Source of the DNA: Butyricimonas faecalis
GTDB taxonomy: Bacteria > Bacteroidota > Bacteroidia > Bacteroidales > Marinifilaceae
Reading direction: 5' to 3'
DNA: 64,000 bases
Assembly (NCBI RefSeq): GCF_003991565.1
Contig: NZ_CP032819.1
Coordinates: 806,001 to 870,000, forward strand
In this document: in pieces, positions 35,037 to 50,624 of the stretch
Numbering within the stretch: position 1 is the stretch's first letter
Layout of the letters: each line of letters begins with the position of its first letter
Position numbers and translations under genes: made by a program
Notes under the pieces: generated by a model
Told to the model about the DNA's origin: nothing
The model's input: only the letters and a program-made list of their open reading frames with translations
Database searches by the model: none

Positions 35037-35642
35037 TTACCCCCAATGAGAAACCGAAAAAAATAAAATAAATTGTAGAAGCCAATTCAACTCCTCCCTT
35101 AACTTACTCAAAGCGATCGACATATGCCGTTCTACCGTTTTTTCAGAAATACCCAATTTTTCAGCAATCTCCCGATTTTTTAATCCTTCAATTTTGCTTA
35201 AAACAAAAACTTCTCGACACTTTTCCGGTAAAACAGCCATGGCTTCCCGAATAGCCTCTTCTATATCCGACTTCCACAAAACCTCTTCTGCTTCCGGGGA
35301 CTGAATTACCGTGGAAAAATAAAAATCAGACAATTGTTCCTGTTCATACTTCTGAATATTCTTTTGATGAGCAAGCGTGTTTAAACAACCGTGATAAACC
35401 GATTTAAAAAGATAAGCTTTAACAGAAAGAGAAATACTCAACGCATCCCGATTTTCCCATATTTTATAGAACACCTGTTGTACAACATCTCGGGCCGTCT
35501 CCACATCATTCAGCAAACGATCGGCATAATTCAGCAACGCATCATAATACGTGGTGTATATATCTACAAATGCAGAGATCTCACCACGCCTCAATAACGT
35601 TAACAATTCCCTATCTTCTGAATAATCCAAGACCATGCACAT
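35037..35642 (-). CDS. ECF-type RNA polymerase sigma factor
   Basis: 201 residues. Region 2 reads LLRRGEISAFVDIYTTYYDALLNYA with DVVQQVFYKIWENRD, and region 4 reads LPEKCREVFVLSKIEGLKNREIA then GISEKTVERHMSIALSKLREEL, the DNA-binding helix-turn-helix. A second ATG two codons in (35636) is equally possible. The C-terminal stretch LLQFILFFSVSHWG is hydrophobic, as often seen in Bacteroidetes FecI-like sigma factors. It is probably held by the FecR protein encoded next and drives the SusC operon when ligand is sensed. Confidence 0.94.
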   Translation of the reverse strand: MCMVLDYSEDRELLTLLRRGEISAFVDIYTTYYDALLNYADRLLNDVETARDVVQQVFYKIWENRDALSISLSVKAYLFKSVYHGCLNTLAHQKNIQKYEQEQLSDFYFSTVIQSPEAEEVLWKSDIEEAIREAMAVLPEKCREVFVLSKIEGLKNREIAEKLGISEKTVERHMSIALSKLREELNWLLQFILFFSVSHWG

Positions 35643-35663: not shown

Positions 35664-35846
35664 AAGGATTAATTGAAAATATTTACGCACGTCCGATAGA
35701 ATTTAAAACAAAACAAGAAGAGCAACTACATAAGGACTTAGAAAAATTAGAAGAGGTAAGCGTCGGGAAATAGTCCGGTTTTAAATCCGATTTTATTAAC
35801 CAAATGAGAATAAACACATGATTACATCCGGAGCACTACCGTGTAA

Positions 35847-36517: not shown

Positions 36518-38149
36518 TTATTGAACAATGATTATTTTATACGCTTTTGTCTTACCGCTGACAACCGAACTCATCTGTACCTTCCCGCTCCTGTTATTTC
36601 CGAAGCCGACATGCAGGTAAGCATGAGTATAGTGATTACTATTAAGTTCCGATAAAAAACCGTCTACTCCCGGGAAGGCTGCAGGCAAGCTGGCGGTAGG
36701 ATGCAAGGCCAACCAGGTGGTAGACGATGGATTCATAATCTGTATAGACCAATTATGATTTGTTGTGTTCACCAAATCCAGAACATACGAATTCCCATCC
36801 TTTTGACTCGAAATTTCCGGATGCCAATTGACATCAACAGTCTGAGACAAATTATCACAAGCAATTGTCAATGTTGTAGATACTAAAGTAGTCATTCCCC
36901 CGAAGTTTCCGACGAGCTTGTATTTGTTGCTTCCCAATGCTTGGACTTGTAAACCGGTAAGCCAAGCAGTTCCTCCCGTCACCACGGGTGTGACACCACG
37001 GCTTGAATACACCGTGCAAATTTCAATATTGTTAGCAACAGAAGTAGCCTGATTTTTACCATACAAGTTAAACACGTTATTGGATATTGTCATCCGGTGT
37101 TGAGCGTCAGCCACGATACAAGGGAAATCTGCGTCCTCATCCGTCAACTCCACCTTTAAGGCATTTGATGGGGCAAAATTAATGGCATCCGTCACGTTCG
37201 CGTACCCTGGACCATTCACGCTTATTATCGTAATTATATAACGATGATTCCGCACGACATTCAAAGGTGTCCCTCCATTATCAAACATCATCACTTTATA
37301 ATACCCCTCTTGTCCTTTATACTTAGCTTTAATAATCACTCCCATATAATCGGAAATGGTACAATTACACTCGTAAATATACAAAGAAGGAGTTTCACCA
37401 GCAGACCATCCATTTGCATAATTCAATGTACTACCAGCAAGAGGACGTCCCGTCGCCGGAGTAACCGTTGTCGAATAATTGGTAGGTGTCAGATAACCAC
37501 GATCAAATCCTTTGTTCACCGTTATACTTTGAATAACAAAATCATTCAATCCATTCGTCGAATTCGTCACCCCTTTCTTCACTTGCAAGCAAGCCGCGGC
37601 ACGTAGTAGTTTTACCCCTTCGGCTTTTGTCACAATGTTTATTCCTGTCGGAAGTTCAACACGTCCCCACATAATCAAAGGCATCACGTGATTCTCCCAA
37701 CTTCCGGAAGTGATCGCTGTTGTCTTCAACGCGGGGATAGCTGCACTTTCCAACATTCCCGGAGTGATATCATTAAAATTTAATCGATCTGTCATGCCAT
37801 CAGGAGTCCGCCCGTTAGTAATCAAATGGATGACACGTCGTTTTGAGGTCGCATCCAAACGAATGGAGAAAGAAATTTCCGTACCGCTCGGCGTTAATTC
37901 TCCCCCGTCAACTTTCACCCGTTCAATGAACTTACCATCCTCTCCAAACACAAGCACGTCTACGTTTCTGATCTCACTATCCGTATAGGCCCGACTGAAG
38001 GAATGTACGTTTTCCGGTTCCGGCAATGTTACTGAAAGAGCAACATTCACTTTACCGTACACGGTTCCTTGATTCTCTCCCTTATCAGAACACGAACCAA
38101 GTCCCAAAGCAATAAGCATACATATTATATATTCTATTTTCATCTTCAT
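36518..38149 (-). CDS. Fimbrillin-like lipoprotein, probable minor or tip subunit
   Basis: 543 residues from the ATG at 38149. The lipoprotein signal ends LGLGSC (Cys-20). The N-terminal half looks like a Mfa/FimA-type fimbrillin (KVNVALSVTLPEPENVHSFS, IRNVDVLVFGEDGKFIERV, LLRAAACLQVKKG, YIYECNC, VVRNHRYIITIISV). The C-terminal half has a BACON-like segment (MTISNNVFNLYGKNQAT, TLTIACDNLSQTVDVNW) and a final domain ending KAYKIIIVQ. The protein should be exported by the lipoprotein route and built into, or sit on, the fimbria. It lies 45 bases after the 801-residue gene in the fimbrial operon. Confidence 0.75.
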   Translation of the reverse strand: MKMKIEYIICMLIALGLGSCSDKGENQGTVYGKVNVALSVTLPEPENVHSFSRAYTDSEIRNVDVLVFGEDGKFIERVKVDGGELTPSGTEISFSIRLDATSKRRVIHLITNGRTPDGMTDRLNFNDITPGMLESAAIPALKTTAITSGSWENHVMPLIMWGRVELPTGINIVTKAEGVKLLRAAACLQVKKGVTNSTNGLNDFVIQSITVNKGFDRGYLTPTNYSTTVTPATGRPLAGSTLNYANGWSAGETPSLYIYECNCTISDYMGVIIKAKYKGQEGYYKVMMFDNGGTPLNVVRNHRYIITIISVNGPGYANVTDAINFAPSNALKVELTDEDADFPCIVADAQHRMTISNNVFNLYGKNQATSVANNIEICTVYSSRGVTPVVTGGTAWLTGLQVQALGSNKYKLVGNFGGMTTLVSTTLTIACDNLSQTVDVNWHPEISSQKDGNSYVLDLVNTTNHNWSIQIMNPSSTTWLALHPTASLPAAFPGVDGFLSELNSNHYTHAYLHVGFGNNRSGKVQMSSVVSGKTKAYKIIIVQ

Positions 38150-38194
38150 CGCATATTTCACATTATACACACGAAAGTTCATTCCTCGTACATT

Positions 38195-40600
38195 CTATAT
38201 TTTAGCAGCCCAAATTTGAACTTTTGCAGAATGCTTAACACGATCATAAGTAATGGTTGCCACTCTAGTATACCCTCCTGTAGCATAACTACCCACCCCT
38301 CTCGTCGTAGTAATCATTACGGTATGAGCCTCATTATACAAAAGTTCGCCACCGACATTGACAAAATTAGTTCCGACGTGGTTCATTGTTCCTCCTTTAT
38401 AAGCATACATGGTAAATGTCATCTTATCCGGAGCTCGCCCACTAGTATACCACGTAGCATAAACGTCAAGTTTAATTTTTCGAGGAGAATTAACATCCCC
38501 TTCCAATATCGGAGCATTAAAGAATGCAGTTTCTCCTTGTCCTCCCGTGGCATCTCCTCCCCATTGTAAAAGGACTTGTCCTTTATACGAAACATCACGT
38601 TGTAAACTCCAACCTACAGCTTTTTTGTCATAAAGAGAATTATTATTCCCATTGCCAGCAAGATCATTACCTGCAAACTCCACAGCAATATCCACATCAT
38701 TCCCATTCCATGTAAATTTCACTACAAAGAAATGGAATGGAGGAATCGTTACTAATATATCTTGATAAACACCAGCAGTCACCTCGTAATCCGGACACGC
38801 AGCATGTCTAAATTTCATCGTACCCGCTCGCGGTTCATCATCATCTTCCGGATTAGGATTTCCTATGTTACGATCTGTTGTAAACGTTAATTTTTGAGCG
38901 ATAAAATCCCATGAAATATCATGAATCCAGCTCTGTGGTGACGAAAAATTCTCAATCATTCTGTTTCCACCATATACAATAACATCCTCCGAGTTAGTCA
39001 CCGCAGTTGTTGCCCCTCCTTGCGGAGCTGCCGCACTGATCGTATTATCATTATCAACATATATATAACAATTAACCAAACGTATCGTATCGGTAGCAAG
39101 TGTCATGATGTTTTTTACGATGACAAGAGTATCTCCATACACCAAATGTCCTTCATCCAACGTCTTGTTGTACGCGACAGAAGAACGCGTAAAATTCACA
39201 TTACTTTTTCCCGCGTTTCCACTCTGCACGTTTGCCCGAGCTTTCTTGGGGTCTGCCGTCAGAAATTTCCATCCCCCACCAATACTAGTAATTTCAACCT
39301 GCCTATTCTCGTGAAGGTTCGGACAGAAAACCAGTCGTTTATTATTCACACGGATTGTCCCTTCATCCGGTCTTTGCGTCACGGGTATCCTCTTTGTCAC
39401 GTTATTCGCCTTAATCGTGATATAAGAACTACGAGGTTGACCATCCACGTAAGAATTCACATCAGCCGTGATCTCGACACCATTATTCTCGATTTTCCGA
39501 ACGGAAGTAATCCAGCCACCTGTCGGGTAGTTTACCGTAAAATCGGAAGCATTCGTATTCACGTAAAGCGTATCCTTATACGATAGTCCCACGGAAGCTT
39601 TGTCCGTATAAAGCTGAGTTTGGGATAGGTCGGCATTTAATTCCACATCCTCCCAACCCAAAATATCAGCCGTCACATCCAGCTTTCCACCTACAAGAAG
39701 ACGTACAAGTAATATACCGTTTACACGGGGAACCCGGGGAATGACCACATCTGTTTTTTGAAAATGACTTCCCCCCACACAAGCCAGATCAACACTCACT
39801 TTCATATGGCTCTCTATCGTATCTTTGGGATTAGCATTCAAGTAATCGTTCCCTTTATGAGCCGGGATAACAAAGTACAACGTGTCACTACGTTGGTGGC
39901 CCGGTAACGAGGTGCTATCCTTAACACGGAAAGTCCCAGTCATTGGTACGGTACTCACCCGAGGATTCTTTGCCGTCGGGAATAATCCCCCTTCCCAATT
40001 TAAGGTAGTAGGAACATCTTTTAATTCAAGTTTATGAGTCCCGTTCACATCCAACCCACCCGCATCGGCAATAACCACCTTTACCAAAGCCACGTTTCGT
40101 GACAATATCGTTGTACCAGCAACCGAATTATCCTGTCCGCCTATAACCTGTTGTCCATCAATACTGGCCGTACGTAATTCCGGCATAGAAGGCAATACTC
40201 CTCCCGCCGGCTGTGTTTCCCACATTTTCAAATCCTTGCGGGCAGCACTACGAACAGGCTGTATCAACCCACCACTAAAATTTGTATTGGCAGTCACAAG
40301 AGCTATATTCCACGTCCCGGCAGCGACAGTCATCGAAAGTCGATCCGGGCCGTAAGTTACCTCTTGAACCTTATGGTTGAACTTTCCGGCATCACTTCCC
40401 TGTCCATCAAAAAGATAGACCAACGTGTTACTGACAATATTCCCTCCTGCTCTCGTCATATTGAACGTCAGTAGAGGATCTCCACCCGCTTGCCCGGACA
40501 GGGAATCCCTATCGTCCGAGCAAGCAGATAAGAAAATAGTCAATAACCCTAACAATATGTTTATATATTTTCCTGCCATAAAATTCTCTTTTTTATCCAT
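38195..40600 (-). CDS. Large fimbrial lipoprotein with BACON-like repeats
   Basis: 801 residues from the ATG at 40600, which has GGGGGAGAAA upstream. The lipoprotein signal ends TIFLSAC (Cys-27). A fimbrillin-like N-terminal part (NTLVYLFDGQGSDAGKFNHK, TWNIALVTANTNFSGG, LSRNVALVKVVIADAGG, TADILGWEDVELNADL) is followed by BACON-like units (LYVNTNASDFTVNYPTGGWI, SYITIKANNVTKRIPVTQRP) and a large C-terminal beta domain. It is a good candidate for the tip adhesin. It is followed by the 543-residue fimbrillin-like gene and preceded by the split propeller gene. Confidence 0.75.
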   Translation of the reverse strand: MDKKENFMAGKYINILLGLLTIFLSACSDDRDSLSGQAGGDPLLTFNMTRAGGNIVSNTLVYLFDGQGSDAGKFNHKVQEVTYGPDRLSMTVAAGTWNIALVTANTNFSGGLIQPVRSAARKDLKMWETQPAGGVLPSMPELRTASIDGQQVIGGQDNSVAGTTILSRNVALVKVVIADAGGLDVNGTHKLELKDVPTTLNWEGGLFPTAKNPRVSTVPMTGTFRVKDSTSLPGHQRSDTLYFVIPAHKGNDYLNANPKDTIESHMKVSVDLACVGGSHFQKTDVVIPRVPRVNGILLVRLLVGGKLDVTADILGWEDVELNADLSQTQLYTDKASVGLSYKDTLYVNTNASDFTVNYPTGGWITSVRKIENNGVEITADVNSYVDGQPRSSYITIKANNVTKRIPVTQRPDEGTIRVNNKRLVFCPNLHENRQVEITSIGGGWKFLTADPKKARANVQSGNAGKSNVNFTRSSVAYNKTLDEGHLVYGDTLVIVKNIMTLATDTIRLVNCYIYVDNDNTISAAAPQGGATTAVTNSEDVIVYGGNRMIENFSSPQSWIHDISWDFIAQKLTFTTDRNIGNPNPEDDDEPRAGTMKFRHAACPDYEVTAGVYQDILVTIPPFHFFVVKFTWNGNDVDIAVEFAGNDLAGNGNNNSLYDKKAVGWSLQRDVSYKGQVLLQWGGDATGGQGETAFFNAPILEGDVNSPRKIKLDVYATWYTSGRAPDKMTFTMYAYKGGTMNHVGTNFVNVGGELLYNEAHTVMITTTRGVGSYATGGYTRVATITYDRVKHSAKVQIWAAKI

Positions 40601-40624
40601 TTTCTCCCCCAAAGGAGTTTCTGT

Positions 40625-42499
40625 TTATTTACGAATCGTAAACTCAGCCGTGGATTCTGCATCCGAAACACTGATCGGTTGTGCACCCGTAGGTTGAACT
40701 ACAGATTTGATCTTCAATTTCACTTGTTTTTCCGCTGCATCCATACTATATAACACCACTCCATATACATTCGCGGAACTATGATTTCCATCACCATTGA
40801 TACGAAGATCATGCATATTCGTGAATACAAAGTCTTTACCTTCTTTAGCAGAAGCATCCGGAATTGTCGTGCAATTCACGATAACATCACTTCCCGTCGC
40901 GTTCATTAGCAAAGCCCCATCAGAAGTCCGTACCAAAGACACGGTGAAGAATCCTGACACAACATTATTATTCAATCTGTGATCACCAAGAGAAGCGATC
41001 ATCAAGCGTGCCGGTTGATCGACAAGAACCCCGCTACAACTCAACAACTCTCCTTCAAAAGCCACGTTCGAACCACTCAAGCAATGTATCTTATTAAAGT
41101 TTATCACAACCGTTTTAGGTAATTCATAACGGGTATCCTCCAACGTTTTTACAGAGAAAGATGACTTCTGCGAGCCATTAGCAAACATCACCCTTGGAGT
41201 TAAACCCATATCGAAATCAAGAGCATCGGCTGTTCCTTCCCCGTAGATACCATCCACGATTATATTGGCTCCCGTCGAATTTGTTAAAGGAGTTCCATCC
41301 GGTTTGAACAATCCAAGTTCGTACAAAATATCTTTTGTTCCCTCTTCTCCCTGTTCCGTGCGTACCATCTTCACAACAGCCTGTTGATCTTCTATAACCG
41401 CTTTACCCACGGGCTTCACCAAATAACTTTGTTGCGCATCCGAAAGCACAAGTTCGAATTCTTTCATCCCTTCGATCAAATTATTCGCTTTCACGGAAAC
41501 CTCTATGTCTTGTTTTACCAAATAACGGTCTGCTGTTCCCCGTGACGGGGTAAACGAAAGTTTGCCTTTTACCGGGGTAAAATTATTCATGACATTAGCC
41601 GTTTTCTCTTGTGTAGCATATCCCACGCTTACCGGAATAGGTGCACCTTCCTTGGTTGTCGCATATCCGGTCAACGTAACGGTAAAGATCGCCGTGGCAA
41701 CTCCATTCACCGGTTTCGTAATCTTCACGTCCGAAACATAAAGACCATGTCCCAGCTTCACAAGACGACTTCCTGCTCCCAAGAAAAGTAATTCTCCGGA
41801 AGAAGCCGTATATGCCTGACGATAAGCCGTCGGTTTATTATCTGTCACGTAACGGTCAAACTCTTTTTCACCCGTGGAGGAGTACATACAAACCCGCCCT
41901 TCGGAAGAAGATAATAATAATATCTCCCCGCTATTGGTCACCTTCATCTTATCAAAATTACCATCCAGAGAACGTTCAAACTCAACTTTTCCCGTCGGGT
42001 GAATACGTATAAACGTCCCTCGACGCCCATTCACATCGTAAGTCGTTACTACAGATTCTCCGGTTACCGGGTTCATCCCTATTCCCTGTACATTTCCCTT
42101 GGATGTACCCGAATACAAGGCTGTTCCATCATTACGTAACAAAGCGTAATATCCTTGACTCCCGCTACCTCCAACTAAAATATTACCATTACGAGCCACT
42201 TGAAGATGATCTAACATTGCAATTCCTTGATTAGCTGGAATCATATTTTTTGCAAACACAATATCTCCCTCCGGGCGAATCTTGTAAATAATTCCCCCCT
42301 CTGCCGGAGAATTACCAATCACAAGTACCGAACCATCATTGATATTGGCATTCAACCCGGTCACGACAAACTGTTTTGCCGGGATTGTTGTCATGTAATA
42401 AGGTTTTCCCTTATCATCCAAACGAACCACCAGTGCCTGTTCTTTATCCTTTCCGGCTGAAAACGCCGCACAAATATATTCAATCGAATTTCCCATCAC
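40625..42499 (-). CDS. C-terminal part of a frameshifted propeller/Calx-beta-like fimbrial-operon protein
   Basis: 624 residues if read from the GTG at 42499 (ATG at 42496), but it is almost certainly the continuation of 42496-43086. Its first part goes on with propeller blades (VVRLDDKGKPYYM, INDGSVLVIGNSPAEGG, NGNILVGGSGSQGYYALL). It then has three Calx-beta-like units (TAIFTVTLTGYATTKEGAPI, KEFELVLSDAQQSYLVKPVG, TVVINFNKIHCLSGSNVAF, VSGFFTVSLVRTSDGALLM) and ends SDAESTAEFTIRK. Adding one G to the G tract at 42518-42522 joins the two frames without a stop. No signal peptide is present, so alone it would not be exported. Confidence 0.75.
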   Translation of the reverse strand: MMGNSIEYICAAFSAGKDKEQALVVRLDDKGKPYYMTTIPAKQFVVTGLNANINDGSVLVIGNSPAEGGIIYKIRPEGDIVFAKNMIPANQGIAMLDHLQVARNGNILVGGSGSQGYYALLRNDGTALYSGTSKGNVQGIGMNPVTGESVVTTYDVNGRRGTFIRIHPTGKVEFERSLDGNFDKMKVTNSGEILLLSSSEGRVCMYSSTGEKEFDRYVTDNKPTAYRQAYTASSGELLFLGAGSRLVKLGHGLYVSDVKITKPVNGVATAIFTVTLTGYATTKEGAPIPVSVGYATQEKTANVMNNFTPVKGKLSFTPSRGTADRYLVKQDIEVSVKANNLIEGMKEFELVLSDAQQSYLVKPVGKAVIEDQQAVVKMVRTEQGEEGTKDILYELGLFKPDGTPLTNSTGANIIVDGIYGEGTADALDFDMGLTPRVMFANGSQKSSFSVKTLEDTRYELPKTVVINFNKIHCLSGSNVAFEGELLSCSGVLVDQPARLMIASLGDHRLNNNVVSGFFTVSLVRTSDGALLMNATGSDVIVNCTTIPDASAKEGKDFVFTNMHDLRINGDGNHSSANVYGVVLYSMDAAEKQVKLKIKSVVQPTGAQPISVSDAESTAEFTIRK

Positions 42500-43086
42500 A
42501 GCGAACTGGTCACAATACCCCCTCCGGCATTTTTATACTGGTAAACAACACTACCGGTCGGGTCCAGTTTCAACAGAATTCCCTGGCGACCATCGGCTCC
42601 TTTCGGTTCCGAGCCGGACACTACGAACGAGCCGCTCCGCAGTAACATTCCTTTCAAGAAATTACTTCCTTGATCCCCTGCATAAATATCAGTAACGATG
42701 CGTCCGTTACGTTCAATCACAACGACCCGTCCACATAATGTAATTTTACCTTTTTTACCTTTAACATACTGCATCGTAGACTGTCCTACCACCAAAACCC
42801 GGTTGTTATCCAACTCCACAATTTCGTTCACGACAGTAAAACCCATTAAAGAAAGTGAAAAGACCACATTTCCTTCTCGTTCTATCCAGGTCAGGTTATA
42901 TTTCTGACCTTCTTTACCTACTATAGCTATTTCATCACCGGGCAGCGGGCAAACCAGTTGAATCTGATTTTTATCACCATACACCTTATCGAACACCACC
43001 GGCATATACTGAGCCTTCACCTGCAAACAAGTGAAAACGCTCAGCAGGAACAACATCCACACGCTATGAATTCTTATCTTCTTCAT
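42496..43086 (-). CDS. N-terminal part of the frameshifted propeller protein
   Basis: 196 residues. It has a signal peptide (1-25, cleaved after QVKA) and propeller blades such as LPGDEIAIVGKEGQKYNLTW and ELDNNRVLVVGQSTMQYV, then RSGSFVVSGSEPKGADG. It stops at TGA 42496-42498 soon after a G5 tract (read leftward; C5 at 42518-42522). In the other frame the sequence continues YCDQFAVMGNSIEYICAAF, whose CDQFAVMGN mirrors the earlier blade GDEIAIVGK, so the stop is due to a one-base loss, not a true end. It lies 23 bases after the OmpA-type gene. Confidence 0.78.
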   Translation of the reverse strand: MKKIRIHSVWMLFLLSVFTCLQVKAQYMPVVFDKVYGDKNQIQLVCPLPGDEIAIVGKEGQKYNLTWIEREGNVVFSLSLMGFTVVNEIVELDNNRVLVVGQSTMQYVKGKKGKITLCGRVVVIERNGRIVTDIYAGDQGSNFLKGMLLRSGSFVVSGSEPKGADGRQGILLKLDPTGSVVYQYKNAGGGIVTSSL

Positions 43087-43109
43087 ATATTATCGTTTAC
43101 TTTTTAATT

Positions 43110-44951
43110 CTACCTCTTATGATATATCTCAACACGTCTTGCCCGACGATTCAATTGAATCCAATCAATATTTCCTTCCGATTGTTTTTCCATTTCTTCC
43201 TTTATCTCTTCTGGAGAAAGTTTCACCTTACCGTGAGCTTTTATATTGAAATTTATATTGACACCATGATTCTGCAAAAACTCGGCAACCCTCTTTGCTC
43301 TTCTTGCAGACAAGGCATAATTGTAATTGTCACTACCCATTTCGTCCGCAAAACCGTCAAACCTCAATTCAGAAAAATAATAAGTGCCCATTTCATTAAT
43401 AAACCGCTCCAGGCATTGAATGGATTCTGTAGTTAATTTATCCGAATCGAAATTAAAATAAAGAGTCATTAGTAAACCTTCTGGTGCATATTGTTTTAGT
43501 GAAATAATTTCCTTGGTAACTGCTTCTGTGGCCCCATTCAATAACAAAACTCCACCTAGAATTGCACTTTCTTCACTCATTCCGAAATAAGGGTCTCCCC
43601 GTTGAACCCCCAAATCTTCCTCTGTTTGCAGATAATAAATATCATCCCGGAACTTCATTTCCCGGTCTGAAACAAAATAAGCAGTTCGCAAATCCAGTGG
43701 ACACATAAAATAGTCATTGAAAACCGAATTCACCGGATAAGGGAAATGACGCACACTGCCCGGGATTACTCCTTCGTGATCATAATCAACATTAAACAGG
43801 TCATATCCACCGAAACCGGGTAACCCGTTAGATGAAAAAATAAGATGTCCTTCGTAAAGTATAGGAAAAATTTCATTCCCTTCCGTATTAACATCTGCAC
43901 CCAAATTCATCGGGGTTCCCCACTCTTGCATCTCTTCGTCCCAATGAACGACATACAAGTCAAATCCACCAAACCCACCCGGCATATCAGAAGTAAACAA
44001 CAACGACTTTCCATCATTAAACAAATAAGGGTGAGCGTACGAATTTTCCGGATTTTGTGGAAAAATCGGAATGTATTTCCCAAAACGTTTACTCTGGCTT
44101 TTGATCACGGAATAATACAATTTGGTACGGAAAGGACGATGCTTTTTATTCACCATTTCCACCGATACATTCTTTTTATCATACTCGATCACAGTGGTCA
44201 CCATCATTTTCATATCTGATGAAAACGTTACCGGTCCATTCTGCAAATCCACCGGAATCCTCCGGAAATAATCGGAATACCTCGGTGATTTCTGAGCCAT
44301 CACCTTTTCCCCGGCTTCCTTCAACTCGTAATAGTGTGTACGATGAAAAAATAACTTCCCGGGATCGTTAAACTTACTGTAACTAATGGCATAGAAAGGT
44401 TGTTCCCCGTAATTTCCGACCCAATATTCTGCATTCGGCGTATTCAAAGACAACCGTTTGGCCGTGAATCCGGGAAATCCCTGCACAGAATGACGCATAG
44501 CAAGAGCCTCCAGGGTATTCTGATAACGTTGGTACCTGCTATACTGATCTTTATAGGCATTATCCAGACAAATTGCCTCGGCTTTCCGAGCCTGACCTTG
44601 AAAACGCAACGCATCGATATAATCACACACGTCATCCACGAGAAATAAATCTCGTTCCTGTTCCATTGCCTTCTCGTAATGTTCTATAGCCCAATTATAA
44701 TCCCGTACCATAAAATACAAGCGCGCAATCTTCAAGTGAAGAGCTGCTTGGTTTTGCACATTCTCTTCTTTTTTAAGAGCCGTTTCATACTGCATCATAG
44801 CCTTATTAAACTTTTGCCCCACAAAATTACGGTCAGCACGCCTCTCCACCCGTCCCAACTTACGTTCCTGCGCTTTAACAGGAATTACCCCATCCATCAA
44901 GAAAAGGAATGCGGTAGCCAACAAGAGAATTTGTATCTTTTTTTTTCTCAT
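43110..44951 (-). CDS. OmpA family protein with TPR and PD40-like repeats
   Basis: 613 residues. A signal peptide ends at about 28 (PVKAQ), TPR-like helices run to about 140 (ALHLKIARLYFMVRDYNWAI), then PD40-like blades (PYLFNDGKSLLFTSDMPGGF, GFDLYVV, HLIFSSNGLPGFGGYDLFNV). The C-terminal OmpA domain (about 485-610) has LYFNFDSDKLTTES, LRFDGFADEMGSDNYNYALS and LNRRARRVEIY, so it should grip peptidoglycan. This layout resembles OmpA-like anchors encoded with Bacteroidales fimbriae and type IX secretion (PorE-like). It probably anchors the fimbrial base. It lies 26 bases from the DUF3575 gene. Confidence 0.88.
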   Translation of the reverse strand: MRKKKIQILLLATAFLFLMDGVIPVKAQERKLGRVERRADRNFVGQKFNKAMMQYETALKKEENVQNQAALHLKIARLYFMVRDYNWAIEHYEKAMEQERDLFLVDDVCDYIDALRFQGQARKAEAICLDNAYKDQYSRYQRYQNTLEALAMRHSVQGFPGFTAKRLSLNTPNAEYWVGNYGEQPFYAISYSKFNDPGKLFFHRTHYYELKEAGEKVMAQKSPRYSDYFRRIPVDLQNGPVTFSSDMKMMVTTVIEYDKKNVSVEMVNKKHRPFRTKLYYSVIKSQSKRFGKYIPIFPQNPENSYAHPYLFNDGKSLLFTSDMPGGFGGFDLYVVHWDEEMQEWGTPMNLGADVNTEGNEIFPILYEGHLIFSSNGLPGFGGYDLFNVDYDHEGVIPGSVRHFPYPVNSVFNDYFMCPLDLRTAYFVSDREMKFRDDIYYLQTEEDLGVQRGDPYFGMSEESAILGGVLLLNGATEAVTKEIISLKQYAPEGLLMTLYFNFDSDKLTTESIQCLERFINEMGTYYFSELRFDGFADEMGSDNYNYALSARRAKRVAEFLQNHGVNINFNIKAHGKVKLSPEEIKEEMEKQSEGNIDWIQLNRRARRVEIYHKR

Positions 44952-44977
44952 TTTTCAGCAACATTTTATCTGTAACA

Positions 44978-45574
44978 CTAGCGGAATATATTATACGTAA
45001 GACTTACGCCAAACTTTGTCGGGCCAATCCATTGCTTAGTCTTTTTGACTTCCAACGGGAAATTCGCGTACTCTCCTCCTAGTTTATATTTATCGTACTG
45101 GAAATGAACATACCCGACACCGAGATTCAAATCCAGTCCCAAACGGGAATTAAAAGCAAATTTGTATCCGAAAGTAATACCTCCTGATATTCCCCATCCT
45201 TTCCGCCGATAACTCTGGAGAGGATCATTATGTTTCAACAATCCGATATTAAAGTTGCCATACATAGCGTAAGGACCGATATAAAATCCATCCCATGAAT
45301 CATTTGTATAAAAATTTTGTGGGTTCCAGTAGTAGCGCAACTCTGCAACCCCCGTTAATATGCGAAAAACCTCTTCATGCTTTTTAAACATATACGGTAA
45401 CCATGCCCCCTCGGCATTTACCGTCAATTGTCGCGTTAACGTGTATTCAAAACCGATATTAGGTGAACCGGTTAACCATAAAGGTATATTTACCTTAACA
45501 CTTTGTGCCCGTACCCCGCCAAATAAACAAAGTAAAACGGAAACAAGTAAAATATATCGTACAACTGGTTTCAT
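44978..45574 (-). CDS. DUF3575 outer-membrane beta-barrel protein
   Basis: 198 residues from the ATG at 45574, which gives a clean signal peptide cleaved after GVRA; an ATG at 45592 and an open frame to 45640 exist, the latter overlapping the Mfa2-like gene. The body alternates aromatic beta strands (NIGFEYTLTRQLTVNAEGAW, ELRYYWNP, GFYIGPYAMYGNFNIG, GISGGITFGYKFAF, LGLDLNLGVGYVHFQY) and ends in Phe-Arg. DUF3575 proteins are predicted small barrels often encoded with fimbrial and OmpA genes. A role in fimbrial anchoring or secretion is likely but not shown. Confidence 0.82.
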   Translation of the reverse strand: MKPVVRYILLVSVLLCLFGGVRAQSVKVNIPLWLTGSPNIGFEYTLTRQLTVNAEGAWLPYMFKKHEEVFRILTGVAELRYYWNPQNFYTNDSWDGFYIGPYAMYGNFNIGLLKHNDPLQSYRRKGWGISGGITFGYKFAFNSRLGLDLNLGVGYVHFQYDKYKLGGEYANFPLEVKKTKQWIGPTKFGVSLTYNIFR

Positions 45575-45602
45575 ATTATTCTCTTTATTCATGAATATCA
45601 TA

Positions 45603-46508
45603 TCATTCCATATTCGTATTTCCACTCTCAATATCTTCATTCCATCCCACGATCGAAACTTTGATCACCACGTAAGAATCGATTTCGATAATGATTCGTT
45701 GACCATGCAATAACCTGAGTGGCAACCCGGTCTGTTTATCTTTCACTTCCACTGGTAAATGATTGACAGCAATACCGTCACGATCTAGGAATGTATAATT
45801 CAGCCGCATAAATTCGCCTTCTATAGACGGTAAATAACGGTAATCAACCTCTAAATACTCATCAGTCGTCTGTGTCGGTAACTTTCCGAAATGAAACATA
45901 TGATCATCCTCTGTTTGTCGACCAGCAATAGTATCATACTTTAAATATTGTACGGTGGACACCCCTTCTGCCAACAATTGCACATTGGCTATGCGAGACA
46001 CGTCGCCAGGAAAATTTTTAAAACGTACAGTTATCCGTCCTGTATAATGTTCCAATTCTACCGTGTCGGTATGTAAAATTCCAGGATGATCGATCACAGG
46101 CACAAACTTCTGGAACAAGACGTCCGAAGGATGCACGTACTGATTTTTCCCGGAACTGCTATTATTCAACATAAAAGCAGAGGTTTCCAGTTGTTGTTCA
46201 TCCACAAATGAAAGGCTATCCGTATTCGTATAACAATAGACCTTATATTCACCAGGGGGTAATCTGAAACTAAACAACCCTGCTCTCATACGGGGATCTT
46301 TCCATGGGGCAGCCTCGTAACGTGCTCCCACCAACACTCCAGTTTTATCATAAACCAGAACTCGACAGTCACTAACCTTATTATCAACCACTTCTTGTAC
46401 GTAAACTTGGTAATTGGTTTCATCTTTAAAATAATCATAGGTACATGACACGAGCAGGAGTAGGGTAATCACACCCGTAAATACTATGAGAAGTCTGTTC
46501 TTTCCCAT
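45603..46508 (-). CDS. FimB/Mfa2 family fimbrial anchor subunit
   Basis: 301 residues with a lipoprotein signal (LLLLVSC, Cys-22). The FimB/Mfa2 pattern is present: SDCRVLVYDKTGVLVGARYE, LFSFRLPPGEYKVYCYTNTD, an N-terminal beta domain ending at a second domain (ELEHYTGRITVRFKNFPGD, EYLEVDYRYLPSIEGEFMRL, RIIIEIDSYVVIKVSIVGWN). In Porphyromonas Mfa2 is the outer-membrane anchor that also controls fimbrial length. It follows the major fimbrillin after a 98-base spacer that holds a hairpin. Confidence 0.9.
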   Translation of the reverse strand: MGKNRLLIVFTGVITLLLLVSCTYDYFKDETNYQVYVQEVVDNKVSDCRVLVYDKTGVLVGARYEAAPWKDPRMRAGLFSFRLPPGEYKVYCYTNTDSLSFVDEQQLETSAFMLNNSSSGKNQYVHPSDVLFQKFVPVIDHPGILHTDTVELEHYTGRITVRFKNFPGDVSRIANVQLLAEGVSTVQYLKYDTIAGRQTEDDHMFHFGKLPTQTTDEYLEVDYRYLPSIEGEFMRLNYTFLDRDGIAVNHLPVEVKDKQTGLPLRLLHGQRIIIEIDSYVVIKVSIVGWNEDIESGNTNME

Positions 46509-46540
46509 ATTTAATATTTTTGTTGATTTTACACCGATTT

Positions 46541-46588
46541 CAGATTACCCGGGAGCAGAGTAATCACACGCTCCCAAGTAATCATCTG
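46541..46588 (-). promoter_or_regulatory. Hairpin between the major fimbrillin and Mfa2-like genes
   Basis: GATTACCCGGGAGC (46543-46556) pairs with GCTCCCAAGTAATC (46570-46583) at 12 of 14 positions, and flanking CAGAT/ATCTG extends it. There is no T tract on the minus strand. It probably stabilises the abundant fimbrillin message or reduces read-through, as needed when the shaft subunit must exceed the anchor. Confidence 0.6.
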
Positions 46589-46606
46589 AGTGTATAAAAA
46601 GGAATT

Positions 46607-47827
46607 TTACAATGTAAGTGCTGATTCTACTATATTACTACTCCAAGCTACCGGTACAGTAACAGCAATTGTCAAACCACCCTCTTCTCTAGGAGTAGTT
46701 GGAACCTCCGTGGAACCTCCGGAACGTAAAGTCAAATTTACTTCACGAATAGTATTGGGTGTAAAGTTCTCCTTGATCAAACCTGACCAATAAACAGGAC
46801 CCTCAGAGAGCATTTTATCTCCGTTTGCCAGAACATGACCGACTTTACCACGTCCAGAAACAACGATAAAGTATTGACGATCTACTGATGCATCTGCCGT
46901 TGAAGCACCATTAATAGTACGTCCTCCATTATTCGGCCACACAATAACATCTCTCCACATCGTAAAATTACCACCCAAAATAACCTTAGGATTATACCCG
47001 GAAGTAGGATTAGCCGTGTTGAAAATAGTTCCATCTTTTACTGTCAATACATTGGTATTAATCGACGTTGAACTCACCCCACCTGCAGTTGTAGCCCCAA
47101 CTTTCATGTTTTCAGGCAAACGGTAAATCATGATAGAAGCATCCTTTGTAAAATCAATCGTATTTTCATTATTCGTCTCGCTATCCTTTACATTCAGACG
47201 AACACGCATCATGGCGACTTCACGTTTCAAAGCAACTGCCGGCACGGAAGTGGTAACACCCGCTGTAACATTAATACCTGTTGCTGCTCCCATAAAAATC
47301 TCTGACGGTTCAACATAAGCAGTATTACCTGCAGTTGTCTGTTTAGTTGAACAGAATGTCGGGAAAACCCCTGTTTTATGTTTTATCACTAAATTCTGAA
47401 TTGTTTTCTGACGCACATTCCACATCGTCCATTCAGTTGGAGTTGTACCTCCGTCTATATAAGTGGTGATTGCATCGGAAGAGCTTTTCACGTTCGCAAC
47501 TGCAACTAATGTATAACCAGTTCCTACCGGTACATCCGTGTACGTGAAAGTAGTCAATGCACTTGACGGATTCACGATGGTTGAATAAACCACTTGACCA
47601 GACGAGTTGTACAATAAAAATTGTAGTTGCTTGATATTTGCCCATGAAGTTTCCGGGATTGCCGTGGATTGCGGAGCTCTTCCTTCCATTCCGGTTTTGT
47701 CAAAAGTAACCTGAAACGTTAAACCGGCCTTTTCTGGATCCGGATAATCCGAACCACCATTCTTTGAACAAGCACACACTACTACCATTGCGAGCAATGG
47801 CCATAATAAACTAATTTTTTTTTTCAT
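46607..47827 (-). CDS. Major fimbrillin, FimA/Mfa1-like lipoprotein
   Basis: 406 residues from the ATG at 47827; an earlier in-frame start at 47854 would precede the signal peptide. The lipoprotein signal ends VVVCAC (Cys-20). The fimbrillin body has GLTFQVTFDKTGMEGRAPQS, NIKQLQFLLYNSSGQVVYST, YTLVAVANVKSSSD, VALKREVAMMRVRLNVKDSE, REVNLTLRSGG, and a C-terminal strand GLTIAVTVPVAWSSN suited to donor-strand assembly. It should be the shaft subunit, polymerised at the surface after protease trimming. It is the first gene of the operon and the first target of the invertible promoter. Confidence 0.88.
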   Translation of the reverse strand: MKKKISLLWPLLAMVVVCACSKNGGSDYPDPEKAGLTFQVTFDKTGMEGRAPQSTAIPETSWANIKQLQFLLYNSSGQVVYSTIVNPSSALTTFTYTDVPVGTGYTLVAVANVKSSSDAITTYIDGGTTPTEWTMWNVRQKTIQNLVIKHKTGVFPTFCSTKQTTAGNTAYVEPSEIFMGAATGINVTAGVTTSVPAVALKREVAMMRVRLNVKDSETNNENTIDFTKDASIMIYRLPENMKVGATTAGGVSSTSINTNVLTVKDGTIFNTANPTSGYNPKVILGGNFTMWRDVIVWPNNGGRTINGASTADASVDRQYFIVVSGRGKVGHVLANGDKMLSEGPVYWSGLIKENFTPNTIREVNLTLRSGGSTEVPTTPREEGGLTIAVTVPVAWSSNIVESALTL

Positions 47828-47904
47828 AATCCATACTTTAAAATTACCTAACATTTGAAATCTGACAGAATGTCATCAAAAAATTTTACTATACACGATT
47901 TAAA

Positions 47905-47933
47905 TTTACCGTTACTTTGTAGGTAACGGTAAA
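47905..47933. repeat. Left inversion site (IRL) of the fimbrial promoter switch
   Basis: Arms TTTACCGTTAC (47905-47915) and GTAACGGTAAA (47923-47933) are exact 11-bp reverse complements around the asymmetric 7-bp spacer TTTGTAG. The inner 21 bases (47909-47929) are the exact reverse complement of 48184-48204. Arms plus a 6-8 bp spacer is the normal layout of a tyrosine-recombinase core site. Confidence 0.9.
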
Positions 47934-48197
47934 ACATAAAATTTCAAATAAAAAAGAGGTCTTTCGGCGGTTTGTTATTTATATAATGAATTTTTGTAGC
48001 CCAGAGAAGGCGATCTTGAATACACCCATTTTTAGAAATTAGAGATGGGGAGTAGGTTTTTTTGTCTCCTCCAAAACTACTACTCAAAAAAAATTGAATT
48101 ATTTTATCATCTATTGAAAAATAATCGTCGCATTATTTGAAATAATAAAAAAATATATATAAATTTGCACACATTAAAAGATTCCGTTACCTACAAA
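47916..48197. other. Probable invertible promoter segment (phase switch), shown in OFF orientation
   Basis: The DNA between the two crossover spacers is about 275 bases, has no gene, and carries a promoter (48136-48167) that points right, away from the fimbrillin at 47827. Inversion would move its -7 box to about 47946-47953 pointing left, giving a leader of roughly 110 bases to the fimbrillin ATG. Small hairpins flank the switch on the outside (TGACAGAATGTCA at 47863-47875 and CTGACTAATTGTCAG at 48213-48227). The whole 447-base region 47828-48274 is otherwise non-coding. Confidence 0.85.
48136..48167 (+). promoter_or_regulatory. Bacteroides-type promoter inside the invertible segment
   Basis: TTTG at 48136-48139 (-33) and TAAATTTG at 48160-48167 (-7, TAnnTTTG) are separated by 20 bases of nearly pure A/T. 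Start of transcription is expected near 48170-48175, directly before the right inversion site. In the present orientation it reads antisense towards the recombinase gene. Confidence 0.75.
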
Positions 48198-48212
48198 GTA
48201 ACGGAATCTTTT
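48176..48212. repeat. Right inversion site (IRR), also a terminator-like hairpin
   Basis: Arms AAAAGATTCCGTTAC (48176-48190) and GTAACGGAATCTTTT (48198-48212) are exact 15-bp reverse complements around spacer CTACAAA. The core 48184-48204 is the inverse of the left site. Read rightward, the RNA would fold into a 15-bp stem ending in UUUU, resembling an intrinsic terminator right after the promoter start. Confidence 0.88.
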
Positions 48213-48274
48213 CTGACTAATTGTCAGATATTTATATCCCCAAACATCACATAATTTCTATATTATTCTCAACA

Positions 48275-49192
48275 CTACACTTTCTTAGACAAAACAAAAG
48301 CTACAAGTGCATTATTTAATCGATTCACCTCATCTTCCCGATAACGCTGGAAATAAGTTTCTGTCACCTTTATCGAAGAATGCCCCATTGCATCACAGAT
48401 CAGACTGGAATTATAATTCTGCCGCAAGGCCGTCGTTGCCCATGTATGGCGTGCCACGTAAGTACTTAGCTGCTCCCTGATCTTCAGAAAATACCCTACT
48501 TGCCGCAACCGGTAATTATGCAAGCGTAACATCTTGGAATACTGCCGGTACTCATCCTGCTTGGAGTTCTGAATAATAGGAAGCAAATAAGGAGAATCAG
48601 GATATATATCCTTGTACTTCTCGATAATAGCCATCGCCTCGGGGCAAACCACAACAGTCAATTTCCGTCTCGTCTTGTGCCGATGATAAACAATCACATT
48701 CCCCTGTAAATCACATCTACGCAAGAATGCTAGGTCAACAAAGGGCATTCCACGCAACAAAAACAACAAGACAAACATGTCCCGGGTAAAAGAAAGTCGT
48801 TCAGGCAGAGGCTTTTTATCTGTCATTAATCGACAGATTACCTCTGGGGAAACCGCCCTTTTCACCTGACAATCAATCCCGGTGTGTACCCGACTGAAAA
48901 GACGGGGTTTATAAGGGGCAATTCCTCGTTCAACCGCTTGGTTATAAACGGATCTCAACGTCCGCATATATGTTGAAATGGAATTCCATTTCAACTGGTC
49001 AGACAATAACTTTCGCTCGAATTGAGATAACAATTCTGGGGTCAATTGCTTAAAACTAACATCACACCCATTCGAAAATTTCTTCAATCGTTTCAAAGTA
49101 CTTTGATAAACATGAGCAGTACCATCTCGCTGCTCTCGTTCCAACTCAACAATAAGTCGCTCCATAAACTGTGTTAAAAATTCTCGTTTCAT
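48275..49192 (-). CDS. Tyrosine site-specific recombinase, probable fimbrial promoter invertase
   Basis: 305 residues. The N-terminal SAM-like DNA-binding domain runs to about 110 (YQSTLKRLKKFS, WNSISTYMRTLRSVYNQAVE). Catalytic residues visible are R147 (LLRGMPFVDL), K173 (HKTRRKL), R248 and the following His (TYVARHTWATTA), H271 (MGHSSIKVTE) and nucleophile Y280. The first position of the usual HxxR box is Tyr (Y245), a variant I associate with Bacteroidales shufflons and promoter invertases. It ends 71 bases from the right inversion site, so the switch DNA lies between it and the fimbrillin. Confidence 0.93.
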   Translation of the reverse strand: MKREFLTQFMERLIVELEREQRDGTAHVYQSTLKRLKKFSNGCDVSFKQLTPELLSQFERKLLSDQLKWNSISTYMRTLRSVYNQAVERGIAPYKPRLFSRVHTGIDCQVKRAVSPEVICRLMTDKKPLPERLSFTRDMFVLLFLLRGMPFVDLAFLRRCDLQGNVIVYHRHKTRRKLTVVVCPEAMAIIEKYKDIYPDSPYLLPIIQNSKQDEYRQYSKMLRLHNYRLRQVGYFLKIREQLSTYVARHTWATTALRQNYNSSLICDAMGHSSIKVTETYFQRYREDEVNRLNNALVAFVLSKKV

Positions 49193-49268: not shown

Positions 49269-49673
49269 TTACTTTGATGTTTTTTCCTTCACGGGTGCAT
49301 TCATTCCGGTAGTATTACAAACTCCATCAAACCTGGCATTCGGTTCTATTTCCAGCTTACGCGTATAGACATCACCTTTTACCATACACCCAGATCGCAT
49401 GTACAGTTCATTCGTCGCGTGAATATCTCCTTGCAACGAACCATATAACACCGCAATATCACAGTTTACATTTCCCTTGACTTTTCCTTGTGAACCAATG
49501 ACAACTTTCCCTTTACAAATAATGTCTCCCTCTAACGTTCCCTCCAGATGTAATCCTCCCGCAATAGTAATTATCCCTTTCACTATTGTCCCTATTGTTA
49601 GCATTGTCAGGTTGTCAGCACTGACTTCTATTAATTTTTCAGAGTCATCTTCATTCTTTTTCTTTCCAAACAT
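49269..49673 (-). CDS. Bactofilin (polymer-forming cytoskeletal protein)
   Basis: 134 residues. After a charged N-terminus (MFGKKKNEDDSEK) comes the bactofilin beta-helix: TIGTIVKGIITIAGGLHLEG, TLEGDIICKGKVVIGSQGKV, KGNVNCDIAVLYGSLQGDI, HATNELYMRSGCMVKGDVYT, and ARFDGVCNTTG. Such proteins polymerise without nucleotides and act as scaffolds on the inner membrane or the wall-synthesis machinery. It ends 76 bases before the recombinase gene on the same strand, which may share its promoter. No link to fimbriae is evident. Confidence 0.9.
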   Translation of the reverse strand: MFGKKKNEDDSEKLIEVSADNLTMLTIGTIVKGIITIAGGLHLEGTLEGDIICKGKVVIGSQGKVKGNVNCDIAVLYGSLQGDIHATNELYMRSGCMVKGDVYTRKLEIEPNARFDGVCNTTGMNAPVKEKTSK

Positions 49674-49952: not shown

Positions 49953-50624
49953 ATGAAGAAAGCACTTGTTTTATTATCCGGTGGACTGGATTCCACGACA
50001 GCTCTATACGTTGCCAAAGAACAAGGATTTGATGAATTATATGCCATCACCTTCGAGTACGGGCAAAAACACGATAAAGAGATAAAAGCGGCAAAAGCCG
50101 TGGCAAAAGCTGCCGGAGTAAAAGAACACAAATTCGTGAAGATCATGCTGAACCAATGGGATGGATGTTCCCTCACAGACGAGAAAATGGATATTCACGA
50201 CGGAGATATAAACCGGACTACTATTCCGGACACGTACGTTCCAGCCCGAAACATGGTATTTCTTTCCGTGGCGGCCTCCTATGCCGACGCCCTCGATATC
50301 ACTGACATTTTTATCGGGGTCAGCGAAGTGGATTATTCCGGGTACGTGGACTGCCGGGAGGAATTCATCCGTTCCATGGAACAAACGATCAACTTGGGAA
50401 CCGTTCTCGGTGCCGAGAAAAAACAAAAAATCACCCTTCACGCTCCTTTCATGCACATGACCAAAGCCGACGAGGTACGTTTAGGCGATCGTCTAGGGGT
50501 TGACTACAGCCTCACCTGGACCTGTTACCGCGGCAATGAAAAACCTTGCGGCACCTGCGATAGTTGCCTTCTCCGGGCCAAAGCATTTGAAGAGGCAGGA
50601 ATAAAGGATCCGTTAGTTAATTGA
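49953..50624 (+). CDS. queC: 7-cyano-7-deazaguanine (preQ0) synthase
   Basis: 223 residues. The PP-loop LLSGGLDSTTALY lies at about 7-19, and a zinc-binding Cys set near the C-terminus reads CYRGNEKPCGTCDSCLLRAK. RTTIPDTYVPARNMVFLS is also diagnostic. It converts 7-carboxy-7-deazaguanine to preQ0 with ATP and ammonia, a step towards queuosine in tRNA. It is the first gene of queC-queD-queE and has a clear promoter. Confidence 0.97.
   Translation: MKKALVLLSGGLDSTTALYVAKEQGFDELYAITFEYGQKHDKEIKAAKAVAKAAGVKEHKFVKIMLNQWDGCSLTDEKMDIHDGDINRTTIPDTYVPARNMVFLSVAASYADALDITDIFIGVSEVDYSGYVDCREEFIRSMEQTINLGTVLGAEKKQKITLHAPFMHMTKADEVRLGDRLGVDYSLTWTCYRGNEKPCGTCDSCLLRAKAFEEAGIKDPLVN

Follow-up and report, generated by a model that had tools for sequence, protein, structure and literature searches.

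A pair of short inverted sequences beside a fimbrial operon of Butyricimonas faecalis raises the question of whether the DNA between them is a promoter that flips and, in doing so, switches the operon on and off. A sequence-only reading of the window (the whole stretch of DNA analysed, 64,000 nucleotides) had claimed two 21-bp inverted sites, a single TAnnTTTG promoter between them directed away from the fimbrillin gene, an adjacent tyrosine recombinase gene and a fimbrial operon next to the switch, and all of these elements were recovered at the positions given below. We consider it probable, at roughly 85%, that the 254-bp segment at 47930-48183 is an invertible promoter flipped by the adjacent recombinase and controlling the fimbrial operon. 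The flipping of this locus, the action of the recombinase on it, transcription that would follow orientation and a rare ON state are predictions from sequence comparison.

The site pair, its promoter and the neighboring genes

The operon-side (distal) site, CCGTTACTTTGTAGGTAACGG (arms CCGTTAC and GTAACGG around the spacer TTTGTAG), lies at 47909-47929 on the forward strand, and its exact reverse complement, the recombinase-side (proximal) site, lies at 48184-48204 on the reverse strand, both being 21 bp long. These copies are the only perfect CCGTTAC-N7-GTAACGG sequences found by pattern search in the window and in the 4,976,422-base genome. With the shorter exact-arm pattern GTTAC-N7-GTAAC, seven places were found in the genome (eight for a control pattern), and a spacer is common to these two only. 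An inverted GTTAC-N7-GTAAC pair with a matched spacer is what defines the promoter-inverton class of Bacteroidales, and the locus carries such a pair. Both sites are also found in two congeners, G002 and G004, with one arm change in one G004 site, and the segment between them is collinear and 88-90% identical in these genomes. An Rfam search of 47800-48300 returned no match up to E 1. Short matches of the segment in G015, in G023 and elsewhere in G002 and G004 were discarded, as they seem to be AT-rich or terminator look-alikes at other places.

The promoter, at 48136-48167 on the forward strand, consists of TTTG at 48136-48139 and TAAATTTG at 48160-48167. As is typical of the class, it is located inside the segment near one end and reads outward, here away from the fimbrial operon, which is the OFF orientation. 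A generic sigma-70 scan stood at chance level (3 found, 3.0 expected) and was not used.

The putative inverting enzyme, a tyrosine recombinase of 305 aa, is encoded next to the switch at 48275-49192 on the reverse strand, and both its sequence and its predicted model indicate the tyrosine-recombinase fold. An adjacent recombinase of about this length with its catalytic residues is also a feature of the class; its first arginine lies here in an RGM motif, not in GxR. Residues R147, K173, R248, H271 and Y280 do not vary among the 44 loci compared. When the protein is aligned with 4a8e, the usual GxR place is taken by Pro150, and R147 stands three residues before it; the RGM arginine (Arg I) and Tyr245, which we take to occupy the usual place of His II, are both invariant in the same 44 loci. 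The AlphaFold model has a mean pLDDT of 85, falling below 50 at 273-282 around the nucleophile, and we therefore make no claim about the geometry of the active site. Among the six genomes of the genus searched, the recombinase is 95% identical in two (G002 and G004), and a scan of viral contigs gave one relative only, at 32%.

The fimbrial operon, on the reverse strand, starts with a gene for a fimbrillin-type lipoprotein (Mfa2/FimA, 46607-47854, assigned from Pfam and relatives' proteins), and the proteins of relatives suggest that its real start is near 47827. Domain searches then identified a second Mfa2-family fimbrial gene (45603-46508), genes for a DUF3575 outer-membrane protein (44978-45640) and an OmpA/PD40/TPR protein (PorE-like, 43110-44951), a Calx-beta gene also recognized from relatives (40625-43086) and, as the last gene of the row, an Mfa2/FimD-like gene (36518-38182). 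Just before the latter lies a gene for an 805-aa lipoprotein-like protein (38195-40612), with no Pfam match and with homologues in L058-L060 and L101. Three genes exceed the Mfa2 cutoff of 21.2 bits (48.9, 27.7 and 27.9 bits), which makes the operon, genes 36518-47854, one of type V (Mfa/Fim). Two other Pfam-type models stay below their own cutoffs in the operon proteins (P_gingi_FimA, 21.0 of 21.4 bits; Fimbrillin_C, 20.4 of 27 bits), and none of the NCBIfam fimbrial models reaches its cutoff on them. Upstream of the recombinase, on the same strand, is a bactofilin gene (49269-49673, Pfam PF04519).

The Calx-beta gene is a single frame of 820-825 aa in G002, G004 and several Bacteroides loci and is split here into two overlapping frames (42496-43086 and 40625-42499), reflecting either a sequencing error or a real mutation in a silent operon; such a split is compatible with an operon that has long been silent. 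Separately, a predicted protein of 520 aa (P0218; 6 member sequences, 7 contigs) fuses the C-terminal part of a recombinase resembling this one directly to the fimbrillin, so that the whole switch seems to be deleted in some relative.

Taken together, these elements suggest the following mechanism. The adjacent recombinase would exchange strands within the 7-bp spacers of both inverted sites, thereby flipping the promoter. In the orientation seen, transcription from the promoter would run toward the recombinase gene and reach it at its 3' end, and no conserved promoter would serve the fimbrial operon (OFF). Inversion would bring the -7 box to 16 bp inside the operon-side site, from where this promoter would drive the type V fimbrial operon (ON).

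Spacers and orientation across relatives

Recombinases were searched for in the order (393 genomes), in the family of G114 (399) and in the genus of G644 (158), and by one named scan. Loci were analysed down to 37% recombinase identity; 5 of the 17 loci of the named scan (29-34%) and 14 of the 46 places from the 399-genome search were left out. The order and G114-family searches scored at most five candidates per genome, so that locus counts are lower bounds. The search in the genus of G644 gave 13 places, five of them new (L133, L136 and L139-L141), the rest matching known loci by coordinates or identity. The named relatives include Bacteroides fragilis S82 and Q1F2, Bacteroides sp. UBA939 (four loci), B. 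pyogenes and Phocaeicola barnesiae.

Two places resembling CCGTTAC-N7-GTAACGG were found near the recombinase gene in 50 of 52 loci, five of the 52 being duplicates. For the spacer comparison, site pairs were picked by their arms alone. The 7-nt spacers proved identical as inverted copies in 48 of the 50 two-site loci and as direct copies in none, and cross-locus agreement, a figure that ignores phylogeny, was 9.3% (228/2450 comparisons). Eighteen kinds of spacer occur among the 48 matched pairs, the mis-paired L090 and L096 being excluded; with them, 20 are distinct. After de-duplication (47 loci including this one, 45 of them with two sites; L052 and L092 are without two sites), the arms differ at 42/630 positions and the spacers at 9/315 (Fisher p 0.014). 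When the two loci mis-paired in this tally are removed (L096 and L100, in which a chance arm match was taken as the partner), the differences become 34/602 for arms versus 0/301 for spacers (Fisher p 9e-7), positions and loci being treated as independent in these statistics. A spacer that is constant within a locus but variable from one locus to another points to recombination, because strand exchange in the spacer gives that pattern. In five of the 44 unique loci (L049, L050, L051, L088 and L095), the recombinase gene itself lies between the matched sites and would thus flip with the segment.

A flipped state is seen in a pair of sister loci of relatives. The flanks of the G732 and G688 loci are collinear at 84% and 78%, and the stretch between the sites aligns on the opposite strand, at 72% over 329 columns; the G732 switch is ON, with capsule/EPS genes downstream, and that of G688 is OFF. 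The promoter of G770 is also ON, before a DUF3575 - DUF3868/OmpA - Fimbrillin_C - Mfa2 gene row. Over the 39 promoter-type unique loci, a count that omits the five loci whose sites bracket the recombinase, 23 are OFF, 2 are ON and 14 are uncallable, TAnnTTTG being absent from the expected place. The sequence-only reading had proposed that the segment flips and so switches the operon. Spacer matching at 45 loci and the flipped sister pair sustain the part of this proposal that concerns an invertible promoter, and the flipping of the present locus would follow by extension from them.

The orientation of the switch in its closest relatives is uniform. We delimited a fimbrial clade of 16 loci (3 in Butyricimonas, 13 in Bacteroides), with recombinases at least 62% identical and a fimbrillin homologue in each. 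All 16, this locus included, are OFF in the assemblies, and no ON copy was found among them (0/16). The position of the promoter relative to the site is fixed in the relatives compared: in 16/16 loci of the clade, 37-39 bp separate the end of the -7 box from the outer limit of the recombinase-side site, and the promoter reads toward the recombinase. The 420-bp intergenic region of G002 and G004 aligns end to end with that of this genome at 89-90%, and these three genomes therefore share the OFF orientation. Spacers are matched in 16/16 loci of the clade, with eight kinds of spacer, and the arms of the two sites differ in 9/16. These arm changes lie mostly in the recombinase-side site: all 14 arm bases are kept in the operon-side site of 15/16 loci and in the recombinase-side site of 7/16. 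B. pyogenes DSM 20611 and P. barnesiae DSM 18169 carry two paralogous switches each (L065, L067, L068 and L069), all four OFF.

A single orientation in all relatives had been named beforehand as counting against flipping, and the uniform OFF state of the 16 loci does weaken the claim, with spacers still matched in every one of them. It means either that the ON state is rare or that the switch is stuck. A rare ON state, like that of C. difficile cwpV, accounts for this uniformity no less well than a dead switch would, given that the spacers have remained identical.

A terminator-like recombinase-side site

The recombinase-side site is contained in a hairpin at 48176-48212 with a perfect 15-bp stem and a 7-nt loop, folding at -18.4 kcal/mol in the OFF orientation, which may act as a terminator; in the ON-oriented leader, the stem of the site is 7 bp. 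A second small hairpin with a T-rich tail lies between the site and the recombinase (48212-48228, forward strand) and was the one terminator-like site found by a consensus terminator scan (shuffles mean 0.2), a scan that did not list the site hairpin itself. The 15-bp stem was also considered as a conserved OFF device and rejected: over 25 loci, the mean number of extra stem pairs is 3.0 in OFF versus 2.2 in ON, this genome alone has the 8-pair extension at the recombinase-side site, and relatives do not conserve the stem past 7 bp.

The T tail is conserved. In the ten bases beyond the site, T is more frequent on the recombinase side than on the operon side in 16/16 loci of the fimbrial clade, and the same holds for 21 of the 25 called loci, with 2 ties and 2 reversals; for the 23 OFF loci, the T excess is 19 versus 2 (Wilcoxon p 3e-4, a value without phylogenetic correction). 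Counted over successive tens of bases in eleven loci, T averages 6.1, 4.1 and 3.2 on the recombinase side and 1.6, 3.4 and 3.3 on the other, indicating that the enrichment is local. From this we infer that the recombinase-side site would terminate transcription from the OFF-facing promoter as well as that of the recombinase gene, and that the absence of a tail is maintained at the operon-side site. As a less certain step of the mechanism, intrinsic termination at the recombinase-side site and its T-rich tail would stop both transcripts, and the operon-side site, devoid of a tail, would let the ON transcript through. A bolder version is tentative and, in our view, has the odds against it: the sites would double as orientation-dependent intrinsic terminators, the end and perhaps the level of the recombinase mRNA would depend on orientation, and the resulting feedback would keep the cassette OFF in almost every cell of all the hosts to which it has spread.

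Termination at inversion sites has precedents. In the passages of PMC2784873 on C. difficile cwpV, a repeat junction contributes to an intrinsic terminator predicted only in the OFF state, and genomic DNA is 96% OFF; in those of PMC4747536 on B. fragilis BF2766/tsr19 (IVp-I/IVp-II), the number of repeats between promoter and genes correlates inversely with transcription. The likeness to cwpV is partial: OFF is the majority state in both, but the cwpV promoter is outside the invertible segment whereas the present one is inside (PMC2784873). Folding and the T tail favor an OFF terminator of the cwpV type here, but the consensus scan omits the hairpin.

Alternative explanations, known systems and the cassette

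Could a former switch now be fixed OFF in this lineage, its sites persisting, recombination negligible and the operon silent or otherwise driven? The OFF state of all 16 clade loci, the altered arms of the recombinase-side site in 9/16, the operon gene split here and P0218, with the switch seemingly deleted in some relative, would all fit such a history. Set against them are spacers that are identical within each of the 16 loci yet of eight kinds between loci, the perfect sites of this genome and a recombinase frame that is open and 95% identical in two congeners; moreover, the OFF majority of cwpV, described in PMC2784873, belongs to a working switch. We thus regard a fixed OFF state as unlikely. 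Slightly less probable still is that the segment is flipped by another tyrosine recombinase of the genome, or that this recombinase mainly acts elsewhere. A genome search with the recombinase gave 20 matches including itself, and BF2766/tsr19 of B. fragilis, in the part of PMC4747536 describing it, acts on a distant promoter too; but none of the other 19 matches exceeds 37% identity, their frames are 378-516 aa long, and recombinase and sites co-occur across genera. The recombinase seems dedicated to this locus, because no other exact GTTAC-N7-GTAAC places in the genome share a spacer.

That the two palindromes are only transcription terminators or mRNA hairpins, and no recombination sites at all, is very improbable. 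The right palindrome does form a 15-bp stem, but the loops match within loci and differ between them, when terminators need no identical loop sequence, the operon-side palindrome has no T tail, and the G732/G688 sister locus is flipped. An invertible promoter served by its adjacent recombinase is thus the reading that we retain.

Promoter inversion before fimbrial genes is known from E. coli, in which FimB and FimE, both tyrosine recombinases, invert the ~300-bp fimS promoter element before a fimbrial operon; that system differs from the present one by its unrelated fimbriae, its two recombinases and its other repeats. Weinacht et al. 2004, with tyrosine recombinases in the title, reportedly dealt with a phase-variable fimbria-like surface locus of B. 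fragilis, to which the present operon can be likened by description only.

The locus of Weinacht et al. is described in a passage of PMC12632263. BF2766/tsr19, likened here by description, shares a tyrosine recombinase near an invertible TAnnTTTG promoter and differs in controlling EPS and a distant cluster through two target regions (PMC4747536, in part). The sequence-only reading had supposed that the site sequence and its pairing with this fimbrial operon might be undescribed; for the site this was not borne out. The 20-mer GTTACTTTGTAGGTAACGGA, identical to the recombinase-side site with the next base, is already printed in a passage of PMC12118408, where it belongs to a potential inverton of 280 bp with an integrase before it (B. 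xylanisolvens, by context); the same source gives the class CCGTTACCTABVRAGTAAC in B. thetaiotaomicron. The GTTAC-N7-GTAAC invertons in its passages (S-layer/OmpA and CPS in B. thetaiotaomicron, CPS in B. xylanisolvens) resemble the present switch in site class, segments of ~280-290 bp, an adjacent integrase/invertase and surface-structure operons; they differ in their cargo (capsule, S-layer, OmpA) and in genus, and the exact-arm pair is unique in the genome here. Fimbrillin genes beside invertons are reported in PMC11892184, whose passages on the hCom2 gut community place them for inverton-promoter drive in groups 137, 112 and 122; that work is a survey by groups, and Butyricimonas is absent from its main text. 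Inversion sites in Odoribacter splanchnicus appear in a passage of PMC5903667. Among the matches listed for literature naming Butyricimonas, a coverage outside which most subscription journals fall, there was no account of this switch. The promoter-inverton kind of switch is thus already known in related bacteria, and the parts worth following are the cassette, the uniform OFF state and the terminator-like sites.

The order of recombinase, switch and operon, from fimbrillin to Calx-beta, is kept in Bacteroides (L058-L060, at 52-85% protein identity, and G644). Bactofilin stands beside this module in 10 of the 16 fimbrial-clade loci (this one, G002, G004, L058-L060, L063, L101, L133 and L136); it was not found in L062 and L064, nor in the 1.5 kb examined for L139-L141, and L061 is cut by a contig end. 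Another species of the genus, G003, has the equivalents of window positions 35664 and 49906 ~290 bp apart, an interval that we read as the empty site of a ~14-kb unit, and G001 and G005 have other genes in it. The genus is variable between an ECF sigma gene (35037-35642) and the queC-like gene at 49953: three species have the cassette there, two have other genes and one has ~290 bp. For the Calx-beta protein, Bacteroides L058-L060 stand at 85% identity and other genera of the family from which the window comes at 45-58%, and the closer match to Bacteroides favors a transfer of the cassette between families. On contig G004:C1, the cassette region occurs near both ends, where one Calx-beta copy matches in pieces; these duplicate ends are probably an unresolved circular overlap.

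Two points are possibly new: a ~14-kb recombinase-switch-fimbriae cassette that Butyricimonas and Bacteroides have in common and whose empty site is seen in one Butyricimonas species, and a T tail on the recombinase-side copy of the site that is missing on the operon-side copy (16/16). A known class of switch now extends to Butyricimonas. The distribution indicates that a single ~14-kb unit, made up of recombinase, switch and fimbrial operon and often including bactofilin, has spread between gut-bacterial families. The finding that all 16 loci are OFF, together with the terminator-like sites, bears on how such switches stay OFF.
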